DNA from: Desulfuromonas sp.
GTDB lineage: Bacteria > Desulfobacterota > Desulfuromonadia > Desulfuromonadales > Geopsychrobacteraceae
Length of the DNA: 36,668 nucleotides
Direction of reading: 5' to 3'
Assembly: GCA_002869665.1 (NCBI GenBank)
Contig: PKUG01000099.1
Coordinates: forward strand, 1-36,668
How positions within the stretch are numbered: position 1 is the stretch's first letter; each line of letters starts with the position of its first letter. The translations under genes were made by a program, and so were the position numbers. The notes under the pieces are model-generated. The model did no database searches, was not told the origin of the DNA, and was given only the letters and a program-made list of their open reading frames with translations. This document shows positions 26,573 through 36,410 of this stretch, in pieces.

Positions 26573-27090
26573 TCAGGCCGTTCCCTCCAGGTACTCGCTG
26601 ACGGGCAGCATGCGCCACTGGCTGCGCCCTTTCAGCTCCAGCACGTTGTCGTGGAAATTGATGATCGTCGGGCGATGGCCGACGCTGATGTAGTGGATGC
26701 CCAGCTGTTGCAGCTGGTGATAGAGGTTGGCTTCATTCGTCACGTCGAGGGCGCTGGTCGCCTCATCGAGCACGGCATAGGCCGGGCGGTTGACGAGCAG
26801 GCGGGCGAAGGCCAGGCGTTGCTGCTCGCCGAGGGAGAGGACATCGGCCCAGTCGAGTTCGACGTTGTAGCCGCCGACCCGTTCGGGCAGATCAGCCCGG
26901 CGACGATCAGGAAGAGCACGCCGAAGAGCAGGACCAGCAGCATGCAGAGCAGCAGCAGGGTTGTCCAGGCGCCGCCACGAATCCGCGGGAAAAAATAGGG
27001 TTGGGCAATGGCAACGAAACTTTTCCAGAGGGCGGGTTGCTGCTGCGGGGTGTGCTCGGGGGGCTGATTCTGTCTCCGACTTTTTCAAAA
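26573..27090 (-). pseudogene. Gutted SbmA/YddA-type ABC transporter gene
   Basis: The C-terminal half of an ABC ATPase is clear: signature LSLGEQQRLAFARLLV, Walker B AYAVLDEATSALD, switch His in SVGHRPTI. This matches the SbmA/BacA/YddA type that joins membrane and nucleotide-binding domains in one chain. The upstream part, in another frame, encodes the usual start of such a protein (SFVAIAQPYFFP, then one transmembrane segment LLVLLFGVLFLIVAGLI). The remaining membrane region and Walker A, several hundred residues in all, are missing. The two parts are joined near 26893. A further frame change falls at a six-C run near 27055-27060. It cannot make a working transporter. Confidence 0.8.
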
Positions 27091-28044: not shown

Positions 28045-28416
28045 TTAATTTTCTATCTGTCGGTCGTCCTCCCCCATCTCCTCCAGCAGTATCCGCACCT
28101 CTGCCACCAGTGACAGCACCCCGTCGGCGCTGGCCTGCCAGTCGGCTCCGCTGAGTATGGGGGAACTTTTGATCGCCCGGTTTTTCCGCTCCAGTTCGTT
28201 CAGCACCTGTTCCAGCCGTTCTTTCCCGGTTGCACTGCGGGCCGCTTTCAGCAGGCGCCGGGCGGCATAGTCGCGCCCTTCGCAGTATTTCAAGCGGTTG
28301 GTTGTCGCACCGCGTTTGTGCAGGGCGCAGACCGAGCGTCCAGCGGCGCTGGCGTCGAAGGCCTGCTCGGCCTCGGCAGCGAGGCGGGTCAGGCGATCAA
28401 GCAGCTCATCCATCAT
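28045..28416 (-). CDS. Small helical protein of unknown function
   Basis: A 123-residue soluble protein, predicted helical throughout, with no signal peptide or membrane segment. Two adjacent ATGs follow GTGGAGG; the second (28413) has better spacing. Features are a Cys-His pair (SVCALHKRGATTNRLKYCEG) in the middle and an acidic C-terminus (EEMGEDDRQIEN). No known family is recognised. It begins about 60 bp beyond the stop of the PSD-DUF2062 gene on the same strand and is likely the third gene of that unit. Coding status rests on codon use and the good ribosome binding site. Confidence 0.7.
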   Translation of the reverse strand: MMDELLDRLTRLAAEAEQAFDASAAGRSVCALHKRGATTNRLKYCEGRDYAARRLLKAARSATGKERLEQVLNELERKNRAIKSSPILSGADWQASADGVLSLVAEVRILLEEMGEDDRQIEN

Positions 28417-28478: not shown

Positions 28479-29855
28479 TCAGGCTGTGGACTGTCCGCTT
28501 TCCGGTGTGGGGCGCAGGCGTTTGAGACAGAGGCCGGAGAGGAGGAAGGTCGCGGAGAAGAGCAGCGGGGTGGTAATCCCCCAGACGACCAGGGCCTGCA
28601 GGTTGGCCTGCCAGAACTGCTGGAGAAAGAGGCCGGGGGAGTGGCTTAGCAGTTCCGTCAGCCGCTCCGTATCGTTCGGCAGTAGATGGGTGGCAAAGAA
28701 TCGTTCGCCACCAATGAAAAACGGGACGAAGAGACTGATATGCAGCGGCAGGGTGAGGCAATTGGCGAGCTGGACGACCGCCTGGTTCCAGCGCAGCAGC
28801 GCGGCCAGGAGAATGCAGAGCAGGCTGGTCCCCCAGATCACGGGCATGACGCCGACGGTCGCGCCGAGGAACGAGCGGACCTTGATATCTGTTTCCACCA
28901 GCGGGGTGTGAAACCCGGCAGTAAACCGGCTGAGCACATCCCGGCGCTGACGATTCTGCAGCAGATCGGCGGCGAAGTTGATGCGCCCCTTTTCGAACAG
29001 CAGCAGGTCGGTGCTGCTCCCCTGGCGGTAGAGGCTCTTGGGGCACCCCTTGTCGAGGAACATGCCGACGCGGATCGGTTGCGGATCATCGTAATTCCGG
29101 GCGCTGTAGCACTGGACGATCTCACCGATCATCAGGGCGACGATCTCGACCATCGCCACGATCCCGACCCCGGTGCCGCCGGCGACATCGGTGTCGATGA
29201 TGGTGACGACGCGGCGGTTCTTGGAGCAGGGGGTGGCTTCGCGGATGATCGCCTGCGGATTACAGGAGTGGAAACGGCCATCAATCACGTAATAATCGAT
29301 CACCTCCCCGGCGACTGGGGTGTGGTTGTAGTGGTACTTGTCCGGGGTCAGGCGGAAGAGGGCGAAGTCGCCGTTGCGAAACACGTCCAGCCAGTCTGTT
29401 TGCTCCTCGCCGAGCAGGTTGGGATAGGAGAAAAACTTGTCCTTGATGTTGAGGCCGGTGATTTCGCCCAGTGAACCGACGATCACCCGGGCGTCGGCCG
29501 GGTAGACGACGGATTGGTTACCGGTGGCCAGCGGGCGGCACTCCCAGTAGCGGATCTTGCGCTCGAAGACCTTGCGCGCCGTGTCCAGCGCTTCCGGCGG
29601 GTCAAGGCATTCGCGCAGATCGACCCCCGCTTCGCGCAGGAAGCGATCGTTCCCCAGCACCCTGGTCGACAGCGCCAGGTCGTAATTGAAGAACCCGAGC
29701 GCCCGGGTCGCCCCGGCGCCGGTCAGCAGGCGGAACAACTGGGGGGCGTTCTCGCGCACCGGGTGATAAAGCCAGCGGACGATGCGGTCGCTGAACAGCG
29801 GTTCGTTACAGACTCGACCGGTATGTCGGCTGATGTATTGATGTGTTCCGTCCAT
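28479..29855 (-). CDS. Phosphatidylserine decarboxylase fused to DUF2062 membrane domain
   Basis: A 458-residue fusion from the ATG at 29855 (GAGGA six bases before). Residues 1-300 match phosphatidylserine decarboxylase: the YISRHTGRV opening, D121 in PADARVIV, the RLTPDKYHYNHTPVAGEV histidine box (H178) and the self-cleavage region QGSSTDLLLF (GSS 279-281) that would create the pyruvoyl group. Residues about 322-450 have the DUF2062 pattern FLGATVGVMPVIWGTSLLCI with about three membrane segments, which would tether the enzyme. The usual LGST reads QGSS, as in some VGSS-type enzymes. The first 50 bp overlap the upstream 823-residue gene. No phosphatidylserine synthase gene is in the window. 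Confidence 0.85.
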   Translation of the reverse strand: MDGTHQYISRHTGRVCNEPLFSDRIVRWLYHPVRENAPQLFRLLTGAGATRALGFFNYDLALSTRVLGNDRFLREAGVDLRECLDPPEALDTARKVFERKIRYWECRPLATGNQSVVYPADARVIVGSLGEITGLNIKDKFFSYPNLLGEEQTDWLDVFRNGDFALFRLTPDKYHYNHTPVAGEVIDYYVIDGRFHSCNPQAIIREATPCSKNRRVVTIIDTDVAGGTGVGIVAMVEIVALMIGEIVQCYSARNYDDPQPIRVGMFLDKGCPKSLYRQGSSTDLLLFEKGRINFAADLLQNRQRRDVLSRFTAGFHTPLVETDIKVRSFLGATVGVMPVIWGTSLLCILLAALLRWNQAVVQLANCLTLPLHISLFVPFFIGGERFFATHLLPNDTERLTELLSHSPGLFLQQFWQANLQALVVWGITTPLLFSATFLLSGLCLKRLRPTPESGQSTA

Positions 29856-32277
29856 GATTGTCCTCGGGTAAAGAGAGTTCCGGCGGGATGTTCCGGCGTT
29901 CATACTTTTCGATCAGCAGCATCAGGTTGAGCAGCCGCTTGAGCGGCTGGATGCCGAGCTCATCGTTCATCAGGTCGCTTTCGATCAGGCGGCAGAAATC
30001 GGCCGCGCTCTTTCCCGCCATCAGTTGGTCCAGCAGCTGGCGCAGTTCGGCGGCGACCGGGCCCGGATCGTTTTCGAGGGTCCGCAGATCGGTGCGCAAC
30101 AGGGTCAAGCCCTGGCGCATGTGTTCGCGGCGCAGGGTCTCCCGGTAGTAGGTTTCGGCCTGGCGGTTGAAAGCGTCGGCGTCCACGCGTAATGGGCGCC
30201 CTTCAGCGTGACCGACGATGCCGCGCACCAGGCGTCCGGCGGCGGCCCGGCTCTCCGGATAGTCGAGGCGCGCTTCGAGGTCGCCGAGCAGCTCGCCGAA
30301 GCCGAACATCTCGATCAGTTCGGCGCCGTCTTCGCGCAGCAGCGCGAGCAGCGCACGGCAGTAGTCTTCGCGGTAGATGCGCAGGTAGCCGGGGTAGCGC
30401 CGGCTGGCACGTATCCGCGCGGTGCGCCTGAGAATCTTCAGCAGAAAGCGGTTACGGGTGTTTTTCTGAACGTAGAAGGTCGGCACCCCCGCCGCTGAGG
30501 CGAAGAAAATCTGCCGCCGTTCGCTCTCGATCACCGGTGAATCGGGGATGTGGCGGTGGCGTACCTGCCCCGCGGCGATGTACTTGAAGGCGAGGGCGGT
30601 GATCAGGGCCTGGAGATTGGTGGCTGCGCCGAGATCCTCGGCCAGCTCGGGGAAGAGGCTGTAATGGCGTCCCTCGAAGCCGCTGAACCCCATCCCGGCG
30701 AAATCGCGCAGCTTGATGAACTGGTAGAGCGACATCTGGCGGTCGAATACCCCCATATCGGCGAGGTCTTCCTTGAGCTGCTCCTGGTTGCCGGGCAGGC
30801 CGTTATAGGCCGGGCTTTCATCGGTGCTGAGGAAACAGACCGGGTAATCGAGCAGGCGGAAATCGGGCACCAGGTCACCGCGCAGGCGGAAAGTGCGGCT
30901 CAGCAGGTGATCGAGCCCGGCCGGGCCGAAGGGGGTCAGGGCATGACCGAAGACTTTAAGGTCGGCCTTCTTCTTCCAGCGTCGCCAGAGCATGCGCAGG
31001 TGGGTGAAGTCGAGCTGGTGCGGCAGGAAACCGAGGGCTTTCTCCGGATGGAACTCCTCGAACCCCAGGCGGTAGGGGGCGGCGCTGTAGCTGTTGACGA
31101 ACAGCGGCAGAAAATGCTCCATGATCTTGGTCGCCAGATCGCCGAGATACTTTTCGCAGATTTCCGCCTGCCTGCCGCCACCGGCACAGGCGGCGCTCAG
31201 GCGCTTGCTGCCGAGGCTGATGTGAACGCCGTTGTTGGCCAGGCTGGTGTTGGAGAAGTTGGGGAGCACGACCAGGTTGTTGACGATGATCCCCGCTTCG
31301 CGCAGCTTGCCGACGGCGTTCATCTGGCTGCGGCTGAGAACCTGATGGCAGAGGTGCATGTAGGCGTGCTTCTTCTCCCCCTCGTCCCAGCCGGAGAGAC
31401 AGGGGCTCATGAACAGCTGGCGGTAGAAGGCGTCGGGGATCAGGTTGTTCAGGCGTTTTTGTTGCTGCGGTGAATGGGGGGCGAAATAGACGCGCGCCTC
31501 CTGGCCGTTTTCGAGCAGGCCGAAATTGAGGTTGGCGTAACGTACCAGCAGCTGGGTGAAGAGAAAACGGCGCGCCGTTTCCCCGCCCAGTTGCCGCCCC
31601 ATGCCACGGCGCGGCGCCAGGTGCGAGACATGAAAGGAGAAGGTTTCAGGCGAGCTGTTATCGTTGAGAAAGTGGCCGAGCAGCGATTCGGCGACCGGGT
31701 TGAGGTTGTCGCGCTGCTCCGGTTGGTTGCCGATCAGGTCGGCCAGGGCGAGCTTGATCAGGTAGCTGACCGGCAGGCGCAACCAGGGTTCCCCCCTGCT
31801 GCCGGTGAACTGAAAGCGGTCGACGTCGCTACGCAGACCACCCTCGGGGAGACGCTTGTCGGCCAGCAGGTCGCGCAGGAAGACCTGGGCGGCATAACGC
31901 GAGAGACGCCGATCCTCAAAGCGCACCCAGCTGTTTTCCCAGACCTGCTGGGCTTCGTCGTGGATCAGTTCATGGAGTTCGGCGAACAGCCGTTCCGGCG
32001 CCTCGCCGTTGAGGGTGCGGCGCTGCAGGTTGCCGAAGGCGCGCGATTCACGGATCGCCAGCGGCAGGTCGACGCGGTCGCAGCGGCCGATGACCACGGC
32101 CTGGAGCTCGGTTTCCGAGCCGGCGGTAATATCCTCTGCGCCGAAGGGGCGCAGCGCGTCGTTGTTGCCGTTCGCCGCGCCGAAGCCAAAAAATTCAGCG
32201 CAGCGTTCGGGGTCGATCAGCGGGTCGCGTTGCCTGTGTTCCGCAGCGATTAGATTAAGAAATGTTTTTCCGTTCAA
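29806..32277 (-). CDS. Large protein of unknown function (823 residues)
   Basis: I do not recognise a family. The chain has no signal peptide and no clear membrane span, so it is probably cytoplasmic. It contains conserved-looking blocks: FFGFGAANGNND near residue 30, ELHELIHDEAQQVW near 105, NNGVHISLGSKRLSAACAGGG near 350-370, and YRLGFEEFHPEKALGFLPHQLDF near 405-425. The final 150 residues are charged and helical. The frame is open for 2.5 kb with a codon pattern like its neighbours, so it is clearly coding. The stop lies 50 bp inside the PSD-DUF2062 gene, so the two must be coupled; this suggests a role with that lipid enzyme. It is divergent from the FRG gene. Confidence 0.85.
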   Translation of the reverse strand: MNGKTFLNLIAAEHRQRDPLIDPERCAEFFGFGAANGNNDALRPFGAEDITAGSETELQAVVIGRCDRVDLPLAIRESRAFGNLQRRTLNGEAPERLFAELHELIHDEAQQVWENSWVRFEDRRLSRYAAQVFLRDLLADKRLPEGGLRSDVDRFQFTGSRGEPWLRLPVSYLIKLALADLIGNQPEQRDNLNPVAESLLGHFLNDNSSPETFSFHVSHLAPRRGMGRQLGGETARRFLFTQLLVRYANLNFGLLENGQEARVYFAPHSPQQQKRLNNLIPDAFYRQLFMSPCLSGWDEGEKKHAYMHLCHQVLSRSQMNAVGKLREAGIIVNNLVVLPNFSNTSLANNGVHISLGSKRLSAACAGGGRQAEICEKYLGDLATKIMEHFLPLFVNSYSAAPYRLGFEEFHPEKALGFLPHQLDFTHLRMLWRRWKKKADLKVFGHALTPFGPAGLDHLLSRTFRLRGDLVPDFRLLDYPVCFLSTDESPAYNGLPGNQEQLKEDLADMGVFDRQMSLYQFIKLRDFAGMGFSGFEGRHYSLFPELAEDLGAATNLQALITALAFKYIAAGQVRHRHIPDSPVIESERRQIFFASAAGVPTFYVQKNTRNRFLLKILRRTARIRASRRYPGYLRIYREDYCRALLALLREDGAELIEMFGFGELLGDLEARLDYPESRAAAGRLVRGIVGHAEGRPLRVDADAFNRQAETYYRETLRREHMRQGLTLLRTDLRTLENDPGPVAAELRQLLDQLMAGKSAADFCRLIESDLMNDELGIQPLKRLLNLMLLIEKYERRNIPPELSLPEDNHGRNTSIHQPTYRSSL

Positions 32278-32447
32278 ACAGTCCCTCCGGGCTTCTTTTC
32301 GCAGGCATCCTGGCAGGGCACTGTTGGCGCTGAATGACCGTTCTGTCAGAAACAGATGTTCCCCTGTTTGCGGCGACTGACCGAATCCTCACATTTCCCA
32401 CATCGCCGGCAAACCTTGCTCCGGCTTGATGTTGGACCGAGGTGGCT

Positions 32448-33269
32448 ATGAATCAGGTCAGGGTGACAAGCTGGGGTCAATTGCAGGAGGAGTTGTTTGC
32501 CGACTCCTGGAGCGCCGATATCGGCCGCTTCCGTTCCCGTTATGCCTTTCGCGGCCTCTCCGACGCCGACTACCGGCTGGAAACCACCCTGATGCGTCTC
32601 GGCGGCGACTTCGCGCCCCTTGAACGCCACCTGCTGCGCAATTTCAAGAAATACGCCCGCCGCAACGTGGTCGAGCAGGATTCGCTCTGGCACTGGCTGT
32701 CGGTGGCGCAGCATTACGGCCTGCCGACCCGGCTGCTTGACTGGACCTATTCCCCTTACGTCGCCCTCCACTTCGCCACTGCCAACCTCGAACGCTTCGC
32801 CCTCGACGGGGCGATCTGGGCGGTCAACTATCTCAAGGCCCACCAGTTGCTGCCGGAGCTGCTGCGCGCCAAGCTCGACGAGGAAGGGGCCAACGTCTTC
32901 ACCGTCGAAATGCTCGCCGAGACCATCACCAGCCAGACCGAGTTCGAGCACCTTGAAGAGAACGACTACACACTCTTCTTCGAGCCCCCCTCAATCGACG
33001 ACCGGATCATCAACCAGTTCGGTTTCTTCTCGGTCATGCCGCGTGCGCAGAGCATTCTCGATGTCTGGCTGGAGCGCCACCCCGAACTCTGGCGCCGGAT
33101 CATCATCCCCGCCGAACTCAAATGGGAAATCCGCGACAAACTCGACCAGGCCAATATCACCGAGCGCGTGCTCTTCCCCGGCCTCGACGGTCTGAGCCAC
33201 TGGCTGAAGCGGCACTACAGTCCGAAGAGCGACGCCCTGCCGGTGCGCCTGGTGGCGAATCGGCCGTAG
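32448..33269 (+). CDS. FRG-domain protein
   Basis: A 273-residue soluble protein from the ATG at 32448 (GAGG five bases before; a GTG two codons earlier is in frame). The FRG domain is clear: YAFRGLSDADYRLETTLMR, then LWHWLSVAQHYGLPTRLLDW and SPYVALHFATANL. FRG domains are named for their Phe-Arg-Gly motif and occur in phage, toxin-antitoxin and defence-island proteins, but their biochemistry is not well defined. Here it stands alone, divergent from the 823-residue gene with a 170-bp shared promoter region. There is no toxin, methylase or nuclease partner, and no sign of a defence island. Confidence 0.88.
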   Translation: MNQVRVTSWGQLQEELFADSWSADIGRFRSRYAFRGLSDADYRLETTLMRLGGDFAPLERHLLRNFKKYARRNVVEQDSLWHWLSVAQHYGLPTRLLDWTYSPYVALHFATANLERFALDGAIWAVNYLKAHQLLPELLRAKLDEEGANVFTVEMLAETITSQTEFEHLEENDYTLFFEPPSIDDRIINQFGFFSVMPRAQSILDVWLERHPELWRRIIIPAELKWEIRDKLDQANITERVLFPGLDGLSHWLKRHYSPKSDALPVRLVANRP

Positions 33270-33755: not shown

Positions 33756-33980
33756 TGTTTTCCGTTTCCTTCAGTCTTCATGGTTATTTTGTTGCCGCCA
33801 TATAACTGTAGCGATGCGAGGAGGGAATAAGAGAAATATTAGCTTTGCGTGAGGTTGACGAGTAAAAATGTCAAGAAATTGAAAGGTTGGCATATCGGCA
33901 AACATGAAATCCTGATCAGCCGCTCACCGGAACTTAACCGCACAAGGTTAAACCGTGCGCAAAAAAGAACGGAGAGCGAT

Positions 33981-36410
33981 ATGGCCAAAGTTGACCTGCA
34001 CGTCCACTCGAAATATTCTAACCACCCCTCCGAATGGTTTCTTCAGCGTCTCGGCGCTTCGGAATCCTACACCGAGCCGGAGGTCGTCTATCAGACCGCC
34101 CGCCAGCGGGGGATGGATTTTGTCACCATCACCGATCACAACTGCATGCGCGCCTCGCTGGAACTGGTCGAGAGCCACCCGGAGCACTGCTTCACCGGGG
34201 TCGAGGCGACCGCCTACTTCCCCGAGGACGGCTGCAAGATTCATATTCTGATTTATGGTCTGACCCGCGAGCAGTTTGCCGTGATCCAGAAGCTGCGCCG
34301 TAATATCTACCAGCTGCGCGCCTATCTTCTTGAACAGGACCTGGCCTGCGTGGTTGCCCATGCCACCTACTCGATCAACGGCCGCCTGACCCTGGCGCAC
34401 CTGGAAAAGCTGATCCTGCTGTTCAACAACTTCGAGGGGCGCAACGGCAGCCGCAGCACTCTGCACAACGATGTCCTGGCCCGCGTTCTGAAGGGGCTGA
34501 CCCCGGCCGATATCCATCGCCTGCAGGAGCGTCACGGCATTGAGCCCTGGGGCCCCAACCCCTGGGAAAAAGGGTTGACCGGTGGCTCGGATGATCACGC
34601 CGGGATCTTCATCGGTAAAACCTGCACCGCAGCCATTGCCGCCAACCCGCAGGAGTTTCTCTGTCGCCTGAAGGGGCGGCGGATGGAACCGCAGGGGCGT
34701 CAGAACGACTTCCAGGGGCTGACCTTCGCCATCTACAAGATCGCCTACGATTTCTCCCGTCAGCACAGCACCCCCTTTGCCCAGTCGGCGATCAGCGACC
34801 TGACCCGCCAGCTGTTCAGCGGGGACCAGAAGCTCAGCTTTCGCGAGCGGCTGAAGCTGAACAAGATGAAGCGCCAGAAAGAGAACCCGATCTACCAGAG
34901 CATCGCCCGCCTGATCGAAGCCAGCCGCGATCTCGACCAGGACGACATCGACAGCCGTCTCGACCTGCTCTACGAGTGCATCAGCGATGTTTCCGACCAG
35001 TATTTCCGCAGCCTGCTTGCGCCGCTGAACGCCGATATCGAGGAGATGGATATCCTGCGCATCATCCAGGGGCTGTCGTCGACGATCCCCGGGATCTTCC
35101 TCTCGGTCCCCTTCTTCACCTCGTTCCGCCACATGTTCGGCGATCGTGAGCTGATCGCCAGCCTCGAGCAGAGCCTCGGCAAGCAGGAGTCTAGCCGCAG
35201 CAAACGGATTCTCTGGCTCACCGACACCCTGACCGATCTCAACGGCGTCTCGATGACGCTGCAGACGATCGGCCGCCTGGCCGATGAGAAGGGGTACGAC
35301 ATCCGCATTCTCGCCAGCCTTGATGAGGTCGGCGACGAACTGCCGCGGGCGACCCTGGCGGTGCCGCCGATTCATGAATTCCGCCTGCCGCACTACGAGC
35401 AGCTGCACATCAAGGTCCCCTCGGTGCTGCGCATGCTCAAGGCGGTTTACAGCTACCAGCCGGACGAGGTCTACATTTCCACCCCCGGCCCCGTCGGTCT
35501 GCTCGGTCTGATGATGGGGAAGATGCTCGGGGTGAAGGTGAGCGGCATCTACCACACCGACTTCACCCTCGAAGCCGAGGCGATCATCGACGAACCGGCA
35601 ATCGGGCACATGATCGAGAGCTACAACAAGTGGTTCTTCAACCAGTTCGACACCCTGCTGGTGCCGACCGCCGAGTACATGCAGTTGCTCAAAGAGCGTG
35701 GCTACCGCTACCGCCACATGCAGCGCTTCCGCCGTGGGCTGCGCACCGAGCACTTCTTCCCGGCGGCGGTGCGCCGGCAGCCCGACGGCAAGCGGCCGCG
35801 GCTGCTTTATGTCGGCCGCGTCTCCAAGGACAAAAACCTCGACTTCCTCCAGAGCGTCTACCGCGGCCTGCTGGAAAAGTATCCCGAAGCGGCGCTGACC
35901 CTGGTTGGAGACGGCCCCTATCTGGATGAGCTGAAACGCCAGTGCCGCGACCTGCCGCGCGTCGAGTTCCTCGGCCGCGTCGCCTACAGCGACCTGCCGC
36001 AGGTCTACAACGAGCACGACATCTTCCTCTTCCCGAGCACGACCGACACCTTCGGCATGGCGGTTCTCGAAGCCCAGGCCTGCGCCCTGCCGGCACTGGT
36101 GTCCGATGTCGGCGGCCCCAAGGAGATCGTCGCCGCCGGTGAGACCGGCCATGTCCTGCCGGTGAATGATCCCGAGCGTTGGGTTGCAGTCCTCGACGGC
36201 CTGCTCAGCGACCTGGGCAACGGCGGCGCGGAATACACCCGGATCGGTCGGGCCGCGCGGAGCAGGGTCGAAGAACTCTACAGCTGGGACAGCATCCTCC
36301 ACAACATGGTCGATGCGAACGGCGATGAACTGCTCAGCCCCAGTCGGGGGCGCCACCAGTCCTCCATCAAGCGCCTGCTGCGTCTGGCGTCGGGGATGAT
36401 GGTCTACTGA
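33981..36410 (+). CDS. PHP-domain/GT4 glycosyltransferase fusion
   Basis: An 809-residue two-domain protein from the ATG at 33981 (GGAGAG upstream); the frame opens 44 codons earlier without a start signal. A PHP phosphoesterase domain fills about residues 1-280: metal-binding DLHVHSKYSNHPSE (H7, H9), TDHN near 52, and a later TGGSDDHAG motif. A helical spacer follows. A GT-B, GT4-type glycosyltransferase occupies about 410-800, with YHTDFTLEAE, RPRLLYVGRVSKDKNLDFL, LVGDGPYLDELKR and the retaining-GT motif PSTTDTFGMAVLEAQACALP. Membrane glycolipid or polysaccharide synthesis is likely. The next gene makes nucleotide-sugar acids, consistent with that role. Confidence 0.93.
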   Translation: MAKVDLHVHSKYSNHPSEWFLQRLGASESYTEPEVVYQTARQRGMDFVTITDHNCMRASLELVESHPEHCFTGVEATAYFPEDGCKIHILIYGLTREQFAVIQKLRRNIYQLRAYLLEQDLACVVAHATYSINGRLTLAHLEKLILLFNNFEGRNGSRSTLHNDVLARVLKGLTPADIHRLQERHGIEPWGPNPWEKGLTGGSDDHAGIFIGKTCTAAIAANPQEFLCRLKGRRMEPQGRQNDFQGLTFAIYKIAYDFSRQHSTPFAQSAISDLTRQLFSGDQKLSFRERLKLNKMKRQKENPIYQSIARLIEASRDLDQDDIDSRLDLLYECISDVSDQYFRSLLAPLNADIEEMDILRIIQGLSSTIPGIFLSVPFFTSFRHMFGDRELIASLEQSLGKQESSRSKRILWLTDTLTDLNGVSMTLQTIGRLADEKGYDIRILASLDEVGDELPRATLAVPPIHEFRLPHYEQLHIKVPSVLRMLKAVYSYQPDEVYISTPGPVGLLGLMMGKMLGVKVSGIYHTDFTLEAEAIIDEPAIGHMIESYNKWFFNQFDTLLVPTAEYMQLLKERGYRYRHMQRFRRGLRTEHFFPAAVRRQPDGKRPRLLYVGRVSKDKNLDFLQSVYRGLLEKYPEAALTLVGDGPYLDELKRQCRDLPRVEFLGRVAYSDLPQVYNEHDIFLFPSTTDTFGMAVLEAQACALPALVSDVGGPKEIVAAGETGHVLPVNDPERWVAVLDGLLSDLGNGGAEYTRIGRAARSRVEELYSWDSILHNMVDANGDELLSPSRGRHQSSIKRLLRLASGMMVY

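Follow-up and report, generated by a model that had tools for sequence, protein, structure and literature searches.

A gene trio of Desulfobacterota combining a predicted GCS-fold amide ligase with paralogues of two lipid enzymes

The DNA stretch analysed here, contig PKUG01000099.1 of Desulfuromonas sp. (assembly GCA_002869665.1; 36,668 nucleotides, hereafter the window), carries on its minus strand a gene for an 823-residue protein, which belongs to a trio of genes recurring in Desulfobacterota. The trio comprises genes for a predicted ATP-dependent amide ligase of the glutamate-cysteine ligase (GCS) superfamily (the ligase), a paralogue of phosphatidylserine decarboxylase (PSD) and a paralogue of the prolipoprotein diacylglyceryl transferase Lgt (the Lgt-like protein). 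The ligase appears to be remotely related to the enzymes forming the first bond of glutathione. The probability that the trio constitutes an accessory three-enzyme pathway building an amide-bearing lipid or lipid conjugate is estimated at about one half. The enzyme classes are well supported, the fold class, gene coupling, co-occurrence, paralogy and retention of active-site residues having all been computed, and from these we infer the activities, the order of the steps, the substrates and the product. That the ligase gene is consistently found with genes for a spare lipid decarboxylase and a spare enzyme of lipid attachment suggests a so far undescribed way of making a modified lipid.

The 823-residue gene and its partners

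The features of the window belonging to the trio, including the open reading frames (ORFs) and the main motifs, are as follows.

29806..32277, minus strand: predicted GCS-superfamily ATP-dependent amide ligase, 823 residues, new family (ORF, homologues and two fold models; without a Pfam, NCBIfam or PDB sequence match)
32101..32133, minus strand: first-strand motif DITAGSETELQ of the ligase, residues 49–59, matching in position the metal-binding GxExE of the GCS superfamily
29806..29855, minus strand: 3′ end of the ligase gene overlapping the PSD frame, which has an ATG at 29855 (about 50 bp; same layout in most homologous loci)
28869..29855, minus strand: PSD paralogue, part of the fused ORF 28479–29903 and second PSD of the genome (PF02666, E = 6.9e-33)
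29013..29021, minus strand: Gly-Ser-Ser, predicted self-cleavage site giving the pyruvoyl cofactor (conserved residues; processing putative)

The ligase ORF begins with a TTG codon and fills its interval exactly, and the plus strand has several stops in the same register. Its coding status is supported by homologues of 45–67% identity and nearly full length, which occur on eight GTDB contigs and in dozens of genomes besides. When 84,980 GTDB species were scanned with a single query, the eight homologous loci emerged, with best segments 49–66% identical, on contigs whose names mostly belong to Desulfuromonadales, Desulfobacteraceae and related groups; these named carriers identify the phylum as Desulfobacterota. 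An earlier sequence-only reading of the window had described a coding ORF for a soluble protein without a recognised family, and this description holds: no family match was found for the protein in Pfam (E up to 1), NCBIfam or the PDB sequences, where phmmer and hmmsearch returned chance-level matches only. The PF04107 GCS2, GshA and PafA/Dop profiles were matched by none of nine family members. As there is no profile match above cut-off to named GCS families, the protein was filed as a new family, probably of ATP-dependent amide ligases. Protein searches of plasmid and phage collections gave no match, viral contigs contained no relative, and no PADLOC defence family was matched by any of the three proteins.

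A PSD homologue lies downstream of the ligase gene on the same strand in all 56 loci (54 without two duplicates). In 40 of the 47 loci where this could be measured, the PSD start overlaps the ligase stop or lies directly against it. The coupling to PSD proposed by the sequence-only reading is borne out by these counts; ligase homologues scattered without a PSD neighbour were looked for among the same loci and did not occur, and the overlap of about 50 bp proposed for the window holds provided that the ATG at 29855 is the PSD start. Clustering of the ORFs near the ligase gene revealed an additional gene at every locus except the window. It encodes the Lgt-like membrane protein of approximately 350 residues, found in 55 of the 55 other loci. 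The three-gene system suggested earlier exists, with a different third member: the 123-residue ORF downstream of PSD in the window, which had been taken for it, has no relative at the other loci of this type, and the true third gene is the Lgt-like one.

With a profile built from nine members, the ligase was detected in 10 of 41 close genomes and in 46 of 395 genomes across the phylum. The 46 include two short fragments, one cut by a contig end (G042) and one of 24 residues (G407). The latter (locus L111, 2073–2144, minus strand) is 58% identical to the ligase with E = 2e-4 and is possibly the remnant of a lost copy. The trio is present in about one in nine of the sampled Desulfobacterota genomes. 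The presence of the ligase is patchy even within genera of the window's own family, which has the look of an accessory trait. The Lgt-like family occurs in 44 of the same 395 genomes, 43 of which also carry the ligase. In the single exception, G158, the PSD and Lgt-like genes run to the contig end, so that its ligase gene would lie off the contig; conversely, a full ligase without the Lgt-like gene was found only in the window genome. The co-occurrence of the two families gives a Fisher p of about 3e-55, a value that ignores common ancestry. Correlations among the distance matrices of the three families (Spearman 0.40–0.54) agree with joint inheritance, but also with common descent.

Two loci bear signs of decay of the trio. 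A transposase-like ORF separates PSD from a shortened Lgt-like gene in L092, and in Desulfamplus magnetovallimortis (L008) frame changes interrupt both the ligase gene and the Lgt-like gene.

Predicted fold and the lipid-enzyme paralogues

The fold of the ligase was assessed by VIA alignment of AlphaFold models against solved structures. Two models were obtained with different query sequences, from nine to eleven sequences each, the alignment being mostly common to both. The first has a predicted local distance difference test (pLDDT) score of 62.5 and a predicted template modelling (pTM) score of 0.69, and the second, for a different member, 65.0 and 0.71. The five top rows of the first model are GshA (Z 9.8 over 328 residues), Dop (9.6), PafA (9.3), YbdK (8.4) and GshF (7.7), followed by a row at 4.5. 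For the second model, the twelve top rows are all Dop, GshA, GshF or YbdK entries with Z 8.1–10.4; the thirteenth is glutamine synthetase at 4.2, and the remainder do not exceed 2.6. The GCS catalytic core is accordingly predicted from both models (Z 7.7–9.8 and 8.1–10.4; other rows ≤4.5).

The fold alignment to GCS structures begins at the strand bearing the GxExE motif. The N-terminal D-x-T-x-G-x-E-x-E-L-Q had been likened to the first strand of the GCS superfamily before any fold search, and at least 95% of the 54 members have D49, G53, E55, E57 and Q59; the conserved glutamates may be metal ligands. As for a clear match to a known unrelated enzyme family, which would have spoken against the sequence-only reading, only the distant match to the GCS superfamily was found. 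This match is in keeping with a cytoplasmic enzyme whose substrates are amines or carboxylates.

The PSD part of the window matches PF02666 with 114.4 bits at a cut-off of 22. Residues G279-S280-S281 are conserved in at least 95% of the members of the operon PSD family, and D121 and H175/H178 are also conserved. Against the nearest NCBIfam equivalog, NF001941, the operon PSD scores 110–138 bits, far below the cut-off of 371, and its scores against the others are lower. The housekeeping PSD of the window genome is located on another contig, C110. Of the 30 genomes tested, all have a PSD: those with the ligase (25) carry two or three copies, and those lacking it (five) a single one. The operon PSD is a second, non-housekeeping PSD.

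Two Lgt-like members match PF01790 with 38.4 and 31.4 bits (cut-off 24.9), and the score against the NCBIfam Lgt equivalog is 24.8 bits versus a cut-off of 334. Canonical Lgt is encoded by a separate gene in the window genome. The numbering and essentiality of Lgt residues, including Y26, R143, R239, N146 and H103, follow a published study (PMC13251419). Equivalents of Y26, R143, R239, E243 and R246 are kept in 52 of 53 Lgt-like members; N146 is replaced by Cys in 53 of 53, H103 is lost, its position being mostly V, I or A, and the signature reads GRLACxSFGCCYG in place of the canonical one. For the E. coli enzyme, positioning of the phosphatidylglycerol phosphate is ascribed to R143 and R239, and H103 may relate to the protein substrate (PMC13251419). 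Since the phosphatidylglycerol-binding arginines are kept while N146 and H103 are lost, the donor side of the chemistry looks retained and the acceptor side altered. Lgt-like chemistry is plausible from these residues, but the protein was not classed as Lgt because of the changes at N146 and H103.

The membership of both proteins in the Pfam families of housekeeping enzymes would also be expected if the operon PSD and Lgt were extra housekeeping copies, serving phosphatidylethanolamine and lipoproteins, with the ligase as an unrelated hitchhiker. This explanation is highly improbable. Co-occurrence and gene order are near-perfect across many families of the phylum, both paralogues score far under their equivalog cut-offs (138 versus 371 bits for PSD at best), and none of the genomes tested lacks a housekeeping PSD.

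Proposed pathway and rival readings

Ligases of the GCS fold join a carboxylate and an amine via an acyl phosphate, PSD-type enzymes use a pyruvoyl group to remove the alpha-carboxylate of an amino acid, and Lgt-type enzymes transfer diacylglyceryl onto a thiol, with phosphatidylglycerol as the donor. In the proposed pathway, the ligase would use ATP to convert a carboxylate into an acyl phosphate, which it would then couple to an amine. The operon PSD would form its own pyruvoyl group and strip the alpha-carboxylate from an amino-acid moiety; since a housekeeping PSD exists elsewhere in the genome, the substrate would be other than ordinary phosphatidylserine. Taking diacylglyceryl from phosphatidylglycerol, the Lgt paralogue would place it on a thiol or hydroxyl group of an acceptor that is not a lipoprotein. 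The pathway would thereby supply the cell envelope with an amino-lipid or lipid conjugate containing an amide. One possible order is attachment of diacylglyceryl to a cysteine-type thiol, then decarboxylation to an amine, then amide formation at that amine. As a tentative and rather speculative extension, the product may represent a bacterial lipid class not yet described, in which diacylglyceryl derived from phosphatidylglycerol is thioether- or ether-linked to a decarboxylated amino acid bearing an amide-linked acid added by the GCS-fold ligase.

Several points weigh against this pathway. In the structure search suggested by the sequence-only reading, AlphaFold followed by Foldseek, Foldseek alone returned no significant match for either model (best E 0.6 and 1.4). 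The case for the fold depends on VIA realignment of moderate-confidence models with a mostly common alignment, in which residues ~290–540 are poorly modelled. An hhalign profile comparison with a few GCS2 sequences, made with small alignments, some rows of which were wrongly translated, found nothing. Dop has the GCS fold and is a hydrolase, so the fold does not set the substrate. The GCS-ligase, PSD and Lgt activities of the trio members are predictions from sequence and models, and no gene of the trio indicates the headgroup.

The moderate pLDDT, the lack of a significant Foldseek E-value and the large poorly modelled centre would be expected if the fold match were a false lead and the 823-residue protein some other enzyme. 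It seems very unlikely, the least probable of the explanations considered, given that, in both models and with a different query sequence for each, GCS-superfamily rows alone rise above the rest and that the GxExE motif was recognised ahead of the fold search. With models of moderate confidence and no significant Foldseek E-value, the GCS fold is a strong prediction and not a determined fact, and no named GCS family is claimed.

Dop is among the top fold matches of both models, and the protein might accordingly be a Dop-like hydrolase or deamidase that removes an amide headgroup, the trio then recycling or remodelling lipids. We regard this as improbable: the GCS superfamily consists mostly of ligases, and the strict operon linkage to two enzymes that build lipids points to synthesis. 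The likeliest of the rivals, ahead of the hydrolase and of redundancy with housekeeping enzymes, is protein modification, in which a protein or peptide would receive an aminophospholipid or lipidated amine through the action of the trio. The matched GCS-fold enzymes PafA and Dop act on proteins or Pup, and the known acceptors of Lgt are proteins. However, no small conserved ORF or peptide precursor was found near the trio, where only shadow frames appeared (a substrate may be encoded elsewhere), and the Lgt paralogue has lost the His tied to preprolipoprotein positioning. Protein modification thus appears rather unlikely, and the accessory lipid pathway is the reading preferred here.

The window locus and comparison with known systems

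The window departs from the conserved arrangement downstream of PSD. The following further features were distinguished in it.

28482..28868, minus strand: DUF2062 part of the fused ORF, N-terminus missing (PF09835 weak in the window)
28850..28870, minus strand: junction with the missing Lgt-like gene, PSD ...KVRSFL being in frame with GATVGVMPVIWGTS of DUF2062 (comparison with relatives)
28045..28416, minus strand: 123-residue ORF outside the conserved module (no match at any other such locus, no Pfam match)
33849..36410, plus strand: fusion of PHP phosphoesterase and GT4 glycosyltransferase (relatives close to the trio at 7 of 56 loci, and within the operon at L056; link uncertain)

The order of genes in relatives such as L002, L050 and L051 is ligase, PSD, Lgt-like, DUF2062. 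A separate DUF2062 gene comes immediately after the Lgt-like gene at eight distinct loci besides the window, one of which is present twice in the data set; that of L004 scores 44.5 bits against PF09835. DUF2062 was considered as a core partner of the trio and rejected, since it follows the Lgt-like gene in just these eight. The PSD-DUF2062 fusion, which the sequence-only reading took for the general partner of the ligase, proved to be peculiar to the window, where the whole Lgt-like gene and the start of DUF2062 are absent at the junction. No Lgt-like gene was found elsewhere in the window genome, a draft of 203 contigs with an estimated completeness of 88.65%. From the comparison of sequences, the fused protein is best read as the scar of an in-frame deletion or as an assembly error. 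With the Lgt-like gene gone, the pathway looks broken in the window.

An FRG-domain gene at 32442–33269 (plus strand) matches the PADLOC candidate defence family PDC-S15 (E = 2.2e-50); as far as seen, it neighbours the trio in the window only. A short ORF at 26573–27088 (minus strand) covers no more of an ABC-transporter ATPase domain than its C-terminal end and is perhaps a gene fragment or a frame-shifted gene.

The literature search found no description of the ligase/PSD/Lgt combination and nothing pertinent on amide ligases and lipids, which is weak evidence, most subscription journals being outside its coverage. Although each enzyme belongs to a known superfamily, the ligase family itself is unrecognised, and no description of the trio as a unit seems to exist. 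The analysis offers a provisional enzyme class for a large, strongly conserved family missing from Pfam and NCBIfam, and suggests that two familiar lipid enzymes were recruited jointly, as paralogues, into one accessory pathway. Annotation of PSD and Lgt copies in these bacteria as housekeeping enzymes by default is unsafe. The trio is present in the genome-sequenced Dethiosulfatarculus sandiegensis and Desulfogranum mediterraneum, with the frame-split copy in D. magnetovallimortis, so the product can be sought by lipid comparison in named organisms.

Like GshA, GshF and YbdK, the ligase has the predicted fold over ~300–370 residues, GxExE on the first core strand, and conserved acidic and basic residues. 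Unlike them, it has no profile match to their Pfam families, is about 800 residues long, and has a large conserved central region not clearly modelled and a context of lipid-enzyme genes. The window genome also encodes three ordinary GCS2-family proteins (contigs C149, C27 and C47), so that the new ligase should not be assumed to be its glutathione-type enzyme. The predicted fold is shared with the Pup ligase PafA and the depupylase Dop (Z 8.1–10.4). The gene context of PafA and Dop is the proteasome, whereas no Pup-like gene was found near the trio. The operon PSD resembles phosphatidylserine decarboxylase (PF02666) in exceeding the family cut-off and in conserving Gly-Ser-Ser, Asp and His, but differs from the housekeeping enzyme in being additional to a short housekeeping PSD and in falling far under the equivalog cut-offs. 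The Lgt-like protein, in turn, is like Lgt (PF01790) in exceeding the Pfam cut-off and retaining the equivalents of the five conserved residues listed above, and unlike it in the Cys for N146, the loss of H103, the altered signature and the low equivalog score.

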